From Candidatus Eisenbacteria bacterium (GTDB taxonomy: Bacteria > Orphanbacterota > Orphanbacteria > Orphanbacterales > Orphanbacteraceae), in contig JAFGGD010000036.1 of assembly GCA_016930695.1 (NCBI GenBank), forward strand, positions 1-36,331: DNA of 36,331 bases, written 5' to 3'. The position numbers and the translations under genes are program-made. The notes under the pieces are model-generated. The model did no database searches. It saw only the letters and a program-made list of their open reading frames with translations, and was not told the origin of the DNA. Shown here piece after piece: positions 1-1,223 of the stretch; positions within the stretch are counted from its first letter, which is position 1, and every line of letters begins with the position of its first letter.

Positions 1-7
1 AAGCGCG

Positions 8-91
8 GCCCATCAAGCGGCTGGAGCCGTCGATCGCTCCGGCGGGCAAGCCCGCCTCCGCGCTCTCGGCTCAGCCGCCGGCCCGTTCGGC
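8..91 (+). repeat. attC-like integron recombination site (copy 1)
   Basis: The element has the four-box order of an integron attC site. R'' is GCCCATC at 8-14. L'' is GCGGCT-G-GAGCCG at 17-29. L' is CGGCTCAGCCGC at 67-78. R' is GTTCGGC at 85-91 (consensus GTTRRRY, with one deviation). L'' and L' pair over 12 bp and leave one base (G23) unpaired, like the extrahelical bases that set strand choice for IntI. The centre contains a further GC-rich palindrome. Positions 1-87 match 1133-1219 with only three differences. The orientation of R' implies the integrase lies to the left, outside the window. No integrase is visible here, so the assignment rests on structure alone. Confidence 0.65.
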
Positions 92-188
92 AGGAGGATC
101 AGGACTGGTTTGAGGGAACAACACAACAACCAGGAATTCAGCATTGCAAACCTCACCAATACACAGGATACAAACGGAGGGACACAGA

Positions 189-782
189 ATGAGAGCGTTC
201 TCGTTTGGCGAAGACACCAAGAGGGTTCAGTGGGGTAGTCGCAAATTGGATCTTAGCATGATGCGTCCATTTTCCGCAGGCATCATCTGGGGAGTCGTCA
301 TGCTGGCGATCGGCCTGGGCTCCGGGTGCGGTAACGGCGGCGATGGCGGCAAAAATGGTAACGTCAGCGCGAAGGGCAGTGGCCCGGCCAGCGGCGACGG
401 CGTCGTTGCCGGTCGCGTCAGTTTCATGTTTGATGGCAAGCAGTACAGCGGCAAGACTTGCATCGCAAACTCGTTTCCGGGTGAAAACAGCACCAGCGTT
501 ACGAGCGGCGGGGACGAAAGCGAGTGGACCCTGATGATGGAGATTCCCGGCACGGCCACCGGACAGTTTGACGAGGATGCCGGCGCTACCTGTTCATTCA
601 TCGAACCCCCTTTCAACAACTACGACTCCGAAGCCATTACCATTGCCGTGTCCGCTTATGGGGAGGTCGGGGGCGTTGTGGAAGGAACGTTCTCCGGAAT
701 GTTGATCAATCAGTTGGATTCGAGCCGCGAGCCAATCACAGAGGGAAAATTTACGGCTCAACGGCATCTGAATGTCGAGTGA
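189..782 (+). CDS. Predicted lipoprotein, probable integron gene-cassette product
   Basis: This encodes a 197-aa exported protein of unknown function. The ATG at 189 is chosen because GGAGGG at 176-181 precedes it by 7 nt. A TTG at 144 in the same frame lacks such a site. A hydrophobic segment ends in LGSGC at residue 47, a plausible though imperfect lipobox. A shorter signal peptide could start at the internal Met near residue 25. A Gly/Ser-rich linker follows, then a domain beginning near VSFMFDGKQYSG that looks beta-rich and carries several Gly and acidic residues. It resembles small secreted domains of the DUF6252 type, but I cannot assign a family firmly. The gene lies between two attC-like sites in the orientation expected for a cassette gene. 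Its codon use is less GC-biased than that of the downstream genes, which fits acquisition. Confidence 0.7.
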   Translation: MRAFSFGEDTKRVQWGSRKLDLSMMRPFSAGIIWGVVMLAIGLGSGCGNGGDGGKNGNVSAKGSGPASGDGVVAGRVSFMFDGKQYSGKTCIANSFPGENSTSVTSGGDESEWTLMMEIPGTATGQFDEDAGATCSFIEPPFNNYDSEAITIAVSAYGEVGGVVEGTFSGMLINQLDSSREPITEGKFTAQRHLNVE

Positions 783-1139
783 CTGGGTTTCTTGTGCGGC
801 ATGCCCCAGATTCCTGTCCTGCTCGGTGTGACACGGGATCTCATGGAACCGGTGTCACGGAACAGCCTACCAAGGCAAAGCAAAATGGACTGCACGGAAT
901 TTATAATATCGGAGAAATAGGTCTATGCCGAACCACCACATTCAGAGGCCAAGCCGTTTCCGTCACGCTGGTTGCAAACCGTGCAGTCAATCAGATGGCC
1001 CGTTGGGTTGCTGCCAGGCATCGCCAAAGCAACCAGCGCGCCGGGGCTTGCCGCTGAAGTGGCCCGATGGATCCGACGCTTCGTGTCGGATCCATCGGGG
1101 CGGCGGCTGTTCCCAACCGCTTTCGGGCCGCGAAGCGCG
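783..1139. other. Non-coding stretch of the putative cassette region
   Basis: I find no convincing gene here. Several overlapping open frames cross the stretch, but none has an RBS or recognisable protein sequence. Two structural items stand out. One is a perfect inverted repeat at 1063-1099. The other is a pair of attC R-box-like heptamers, GCCGAAC at 927 and GTTGGGT at 1002, which lack a convincing paired L stem between them. Confidence 0.5.
1063..1099. repeat. Perfect 15-bp inverted repeat (hairpin)
   Basis: The arms CCCGATGGATCCGAC (1063-1077) and GTCGGATCCATCGGG (1085-1099) are exact reverse complements around a 7-nt spacer. No T-run follows, so a classical intrinsic terminator is unlikely. 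The hairpin sits about 40 nt before the second attC-like site, inside the putative cassette region. Confidence 0.75.
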
Positions 1140-1223
1140 GCCCATCAGGCGGTTGGAGCCGTCGATCGCTCCGGCGGGCAGGCCCGCCTCCGCGCTCTCG
1201 GCTCAGCCGCCGGCCCGTTGGGT
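1140..1223 (+). repeat. attC-like integron recombination site (copy 2)
   Basis: R'' is GCCCATC at 1140-1146. L'' is GGCGG-TTG-GAGCCG at 1148-1161. L' is CGGCTC-AG-CCGCC at 1199-1211. R' is GTTGGGT at 1217-1223, a full match to GTTRRRY. The L arms pair as GGCGG/CCGCC and GAGCCG/CGGCTC with a small unpaired bulge between them. The middle carries the palindrome GGCGGGC-AG-GCCCGCC. It is nearly identical to the site at 8-91, and such homogeneity is typical of chromosomal integron arrays. Recombination would occur between G1217 and T1218. Confidence 0.7.

Follow-up and report, generated by a model that had tools for sequence, protein, structure and literature searches.

The first 1,223 bp of the window are best interpreted as the right-hand terminus of a CALIN-type integron cassette array, CALIN being the name used for attC clusters that have no integron integrase (IntegronFinder 2, PMC9024848), in which a repeated 151-bp unit would be a gene-less cassette moved by an integron integrase; we put the probability of this reading at about 0.6. 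The window, i.e., the whole stretch of DNA analyzed (36,331 bp), is the complete contig C36 of G000, a draft genome of 60 contigs (3.78 Mb, a 96%-complete MAG). Read from left to right, the array would run from a gene cassette on contig C10 or C33 through unit 1, the lipoprotein cassette (86-1066) and unit 2 (1067-1217) into the chromosome. The unit itself would be an attC-like hairpin structure with little else, which the integrase would insert into attC sites at their G^TT crossover, giving the junctions G/ATGGAT and G/TT (a slash marks the point of joining). The unit would have been moved by IntI, probably via the bottom strand, and the enzyme may have come from an integron now lost or from an unbinned contig. 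The features to which we refer below, all on the + strand, are as follows.

1-85, +: unit copy 1, 3' part (unit positions 67-151); its 5' part lies at the end of C10 or C33
8-91, +: attC-like element copy 1 of the sequence-only reading; best match to model R2 (28.1 bits, E 2.5e-4); R3 45.3 bits, the site being in R3 training
85-91, +: R' box GTTCGGC, where unit 1 meets the lipoprotein cassette; by direct reading the exact reverse complement of R'' at 927-933
86-1066, +: lipoprotein gene cassette, 981 bp (TTCGGC ... attC ... G), delimited by R'/R'' complementarity and the attC at 927-1072
189-782, +: lipoprotein ORF, 197 aa, lipobox LGSGC; start at 189 with GGAGGG upstream
927-1072, +: attC of the lipoprotein cassette, 146 nt; R'' GCCGAAC 927-933, R' GATGGAT 1066-1072, terminal stem 960-975/1029-1044
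1067-1217, +: complete unit copy 2, 151 bp, ORF-less; hairpin H1 1067-1095, branched hairpin H2 1096-1217
1116-1153, +: compensatory base pair 1116/1153, A-T here and G-C in copy 1, from unit copies compared on the fold
1140-1223, +: attC-like element copy 2 of the sequence-only reading; second-best R2 match of the window (20.2 bits, E 0.013), ending in R' GTTGGGT at 1217-1223, the right end of the recognizable array

The sequence-only reading had described two 84-bp repeats as attC sites bracketing a lipoprotein gene. The two copies are indeed present, positions 1-90 and 1133-1222 sharing 96% identity over 90 nt (about 97% had been estimated), and a 91-nt query against the 3.78-Mb genome returned these two matches on C36 only. 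Their full length had been underestimated, as comparison with C10 and C33 revealed: a genome search with positions 1060-1223 located the 5' part of a longer unit on the terminal bases of C10 and, in reversed form, on the first bases of C33. Pieced together, each copy (C10, C33 and C36) measures exactly 151 bp, and each 84-mer is the 3' portion of one copy of this ORF-less unit, copy 1 being assembled from two contigs. Since the window's first bases overlap both the end of C10 (18 nt) and reversed C33 (20 nt), either contig may be its true neighbor, and a firm join of C10 to the window was rejected, as C33 fits equally well; the repeated nature of the units is what broke the assembly at this point. 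C36, C10 and C33 are the only contigs on which the 84-mer or the beginning of the unit was found. With respect to the concern that such repeats might occur outside any array, all three visible unit starts (window, C10 and C33) come immediately 3' of the crossover-point G in an attC or attC-like sequence, and the orientation of the unit is the same at all three sites.

The unit is composed of two abutting hairpins whose outer limits coincide with its own, and it is bounded exactly by crossover points, with the junctions G/ATGGAT and G/TT where these are visible. H1 folds with a z score of -6.2, and the H2 region (1091-1223) folds on the bottom strand with -57 kcal/mol (z -7.2). The unit copies differ at 6 to 7 positions: two compensatory changes, two that keep a wobble pair, one or two loop changes and one that disrupts a pair. 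For C33 against C36 the count is 7, namely, 2 compensatory (1116/1153), 2 wobble-keeping, 2 in loops and 1 pair-breaking. The L arms of the 84-mers, which had been proposed to pair with one unpaired base in copy 1 and a small bulge in copy 2, pair with one extra base when the elements are folded alone: an L''/L' stem with the extra base on the L'' side forms on the bottom strand (-30.5 and -27.5 kcal/mol; z -3.4 and -2.3), and for copy 1, folded as single-stranded DNA, the bottom strand is more stable than the top (-26.2 kcal/mol). The same L'' offset and extra-base position are seen in 57 of 66 attC sites from an independent set. The unit copies, however, covary in a different, larger fold. 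What had been described as a small bulge in copy 2 comes from a C-to-T change at 1153 that disrupts the proposed L pairing but is offset in the larger fold by a G-to-A change at 1116, and because this compensatory change is the very one first read as a bulge in L'', selection is more likely to have acted on the larger fold than on the L''/L' pairing. The likeness of the 84-mers to attC may reflect ancestry or a second fold.

Several traits set the unit apart from a conventional attC site. It begins with GAT rather than GTT; secondary sites of IntI1 tolerate GNT. The R'' box of the 84-mers is GCCCATC in both copies and departs from RYYYAAC, ATC in R'' being seen in 0 of the 128 attC sites of the model (partly a selection effect) and in 2 of 26 attC sites listed from related genomes, with CCATC variants occurring in G005 as well. 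Of the R'-like ends, which had been taken to fit or nearly fit GTTRRRY, that of copy 2 (GTTGGGT) fits and that of copy 1 (GTTCGGC) departs at position 4; the spacer between L' and R' is 8 nt versus the usual 5. Known attC sites have an unpaired central spacer (PMC2727003), and the larger fold shows no clear one. No promoter-like site was found in the 151-bp unit. An exact palindrome that forms where the unit's end is joined to its start was considered as evidence of a circular form and rejected, as it follows from two hairpins abutting.

The lipoprotein gene between the repeats, with GGAGGG upstream of its start, was correctly recognized from the letters, but two bracketing attC sites are not the best description of the 84-mers, as the lipoprotein cassette has an attC of its own at 927-1072. 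An alternative start at 258 gives a more typical signal peptide. The ORF and the downstream attC are co-oriented, and the R'' box at 927-933 is the perfect complement of that at 85-91 (R'), which is what a cassette spanning 86 to 1066 should show; the R' of this attC reads GATGGAT because the 151-bp unit follows. The site received 31.7 bits from R3 (E 6e-5 in the window), the next-best non-attC match reaching 10.5 bits and the site itself being absent from R3 training, and only 9.1 bits from R2; its R'' (GCCGAAC) fits RYYYAAC at 6 of 7 positions, its arms pair, and its bottom-strand fold has a z score of -3.4. The ORF at 189-782 has no Pfam match. A homologue, 45% identical, is located at G006:C62; the idea of a cassette-specific protein family found no support, since this sole homologue sits between chromosomal genes with no significant attC in the surrounding 16 kb.

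The bit scores given above come from covariance models. The starting attC sites were gathered, by R boxes and paired arms, near intI genes that encode relatives of the family's IntI in named genomes; covariation in the stems of these sites was strong (10 of 10 pairs changed on both sides), a result biased toward structure by the preselection of arms for pairing. Among the records gathered (L019-L098), most non-proteobacterial ones have attC sites downstream of intI on its own strand, and many proteobacterial ones have them upstream on the other strand. R1, with fixed spacers cut to 5 nt, found 128 sites in intI loci but hardly scored the two 84-mers (8.7 bits for the first, no score for the second) and was rejected for these sites as too rigid. 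R2, rebuilt from those 128 sites near intI elsewhere with natural spacers and no window sequence, placed both 84-mers at the head of the whole 36-kb window, the next match scoring 13.2 bits, and in 886 kb of intI loci nearly all matches above 20 bits fell within an array or faced an array site on the other strand. A covariance search of the kind that had been suggested for the repeats succeeds with natural spacers and largely fails with the simple model. R3 is a family-enriched model of 30 rows that includes both 84-mers and excludes 927-1072. All E values rest on a shortened calibration.

Further small arrays are present in G000. The unit on C10 is preceded by an attC at C10:19590-19653 (R2, 26.8 bits); the attC-like sequence before the unit on C33 ends in the same G/ATGGAT and is weak, R3 giving it 21.3 bits and placing its right end elsewhere. 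C35 carries a small array with a canonical attC of 58.6 bits, and the boxes of its first cassette match (GTTAGGC/GCCTAAC). A 14-nt motif, AGAGAAACTATATA, occurs at C10:18746-18759 and C35:21717-21730, a few bases before the first R' box, and a search of the seven genomes that allowed one mismatch gave no further occurrence; it differs from the attI of G004-G006 and is possibly the attI or leader of the lineage of G000. Most cassette genes seen in G000 (on C10, C33, C36 and C35) encode short predicted lipoproteins, that on C10 being trypsin-like (Pfam Trypsin_2), and a membrane protein is predicted for the first cassette of C35. Right of 1223, the window continues with about 570 bp without a clear gene and then with ordinary chromosomal genes (acetyltransferases, an aldo/keto reductase, glucokinase, TrkA, an OPT transporter, a solute-binding protein with transporter and an S49 peptidase). 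An Rfam scan of the whole window gave no family match. One exact-pattern match in IMG/VR, by chance in coding sequence, and one 35-bp chance match in a plasmid collection were rejected.

The seven genomes are the phylum's share of the collection and all belong to one family, the only one of its phylum in that collection. No intI above the TIGR02249 cut-off was found in the 96%-complete draft of G000, only Xer-type matches below it; the refuting condition of the sequence-only reading, no intI upstream in a complete genome, does not apply to an incomplete draft that breaks exactly at these repeats. Elsewhere, intI passes the cut-off in four of the six other genomes of the family. AttC sites lie on the intI contig in G004 and G006 (in the latter, JAGUYC010000234.1), longer attC arrays are present in G004 and G005, and an attI-like sequence, (C)GAATAGTA/GTT, follows intI in G004, G005 and G006. 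The intI of G004 (L012:8217-9178, G004:C28) consists of two overlapping frames (residues 47-314 and 310-365), looks frame-shifted and is followed by four attC sites. In G006 there are three copies of an attI-like region of about 77 bp with 92-95% identity (L008:2219 on G006:C261, L119:972 on G006:C78 and L120:6514 on G006:C334), two of which show no intI homology in the contig stretches examined and are followed by attC sites, i.e., integrase-less arrays headed by attI. An array on G005:C14 (L121:1-5400) contains toxin-antitoxin cassettes, comprising a HigB-like toxin with an HTH gene, MazE/MazF, ribbon-helix-helix/MazF and a Phd antitoxin. A conserved element extending from AACACTTATAAGGCCCCC to GAGAGGCGACGA and beyond (L117:9195, L112:216, L119 about 5620 and L121:2761) starts directly after an R''-like box (CCAAC, CTAAC or CGAAC) in three family genomes and may be a further attC-associated element. 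Finally, a hairpin directly 3' of an attC in G004, GATGGCGCGGACGCTTCGCGCCGCGCCATC (L118:3103-3132, G004:C24), is like the first hairpin of the unit with a different stem.

The proposal that the region is part of an integron cassette array is supported by the covariance models, by a third attC whose R box matches and, in related genomes, by attC sites beside intI. That the repeats are instead chance palindromes, or a genomic repeat family with no link to integrons, is highly improbable: GC-rich palindromes are frequent in such genomes and the R1 scores are poor, but R2 and R3 put these sites first, and the copies are confined to C36, C10 and C33, each visible start following attC or attC-like sequence. 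Within the integron framework, the 84-mers could still be the true attC sites of two successive cassettes, with a lipoprotein cassette of 86-1217 and no separate unit, a reading compatible with the R2 matches at exactly these limits, the position of the extra base and the CCATC variants of R'' in G005. We regard it as quite unlikely, since (i) the attC at 927-1072 holds the matching R'' box, and the R'' of the 84-mers, GCCCATC, is not complementary to GTTCGGC; (ii) a 151-bp block is common to three contigs; and (iii) the L'' change of copy 2 breaks the L pairing and is compensated in the larger fold.

The unit might also be a small non-autonomous hairpin element whose target is the attC crossover and which is inserted by another enzyme, rather than a cassette. 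Group IIC-attC introns and some insertion sequences do target attC sites, and such an element would agree with the presence of the unit in three different attC sites in one orientation, with boundaries that equal hairpin ends and with the G004 hairpin, which has a similar GATGG..CGCTTCG..CCATC arrangement directly 3' of attC. On balance we consider this doubtful: insertion is exactly at the IntI cut point, the 3' part of the unit scores as attC, and, by direct reading, the unit lacks the traits of a MITE, its ends (ATGGATCCGAC and GCCGGCCCG) not being inverted repeats and there being no target duplication beyond one G. The reading of the unit as an integrase-moved cassette, which we prefer, has to accommodate the negative intI search in G000, the GAT start, a near-continuous outer stem unlike that of typical attC sites and the weak attC on C33.

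Integrons have been reported from many phyla, including Gemmatimonadota (PMC8618304), and the present data add integrons from the sole family of its phylum among the genomes compared, in which an array shows one structured gene-free unit after more than one kind of gene cassette. Should the unit prove to be a cassette, IntI is able to work on core boxes of the GAT/ATC type and on a nearly uninterrupted hairpin, with consequences for what an attC has to look like; should it not, the unit represents a new attC parasite. It is tentatively conceivable that the unit belongs to a new kind of minimal element, base-paired throughout and with GAT/ATC core boxes, which specifically occupies attC crossovers, so that structured spacers alternate with gene cassettes, in a small bacterial lineage in whose genomes several such small arrays occur; a repeated hairpin unit interleaved with cassettes was not found in the literature searched, which is a weak test of novelty. 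The case also serves as a warning that attC-like repeats called by eye can be pieces of a larger element.

Compared with known systems, the unit resembles group IIC-attC introns in its insertion at attC sites and differs from them in having no ORF and, like the rest of the window, no Rfam match. Gene-less cassettes are known from the superintegrons of Vibrionaceae (PMC11014356), and the unit is similarly without a gene and in cassette position; in contrast to those cassettes, it is 151 bp long, almost wholly base-paired and G+C-rich, has GAT/ATC replacing GTT/AAC, and follows each of several gene cassettes. The "inverted" integron of G004, with intI on the cassette strand, belongs to the same family and shares the attC layout, including right-hand spacers of 7-8 nt, but possesses an intI (apparently frame-shifted), which was not found in G000. 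The definition of a CALIN, at least two attC sites on one contig without intI, compares well with the three + strand sites within 1.2 kb observed here, and the array lies at a contig edge, as is often the case with broken integrons in drafts; the differences are that two of the three window sites belong to a repeated hairpin unit and that G000, in which no intI was found, may still have one. The best-fitting label is a fragment of a CALIN-type array that carries a repeated, cassette-like unit without a gene.
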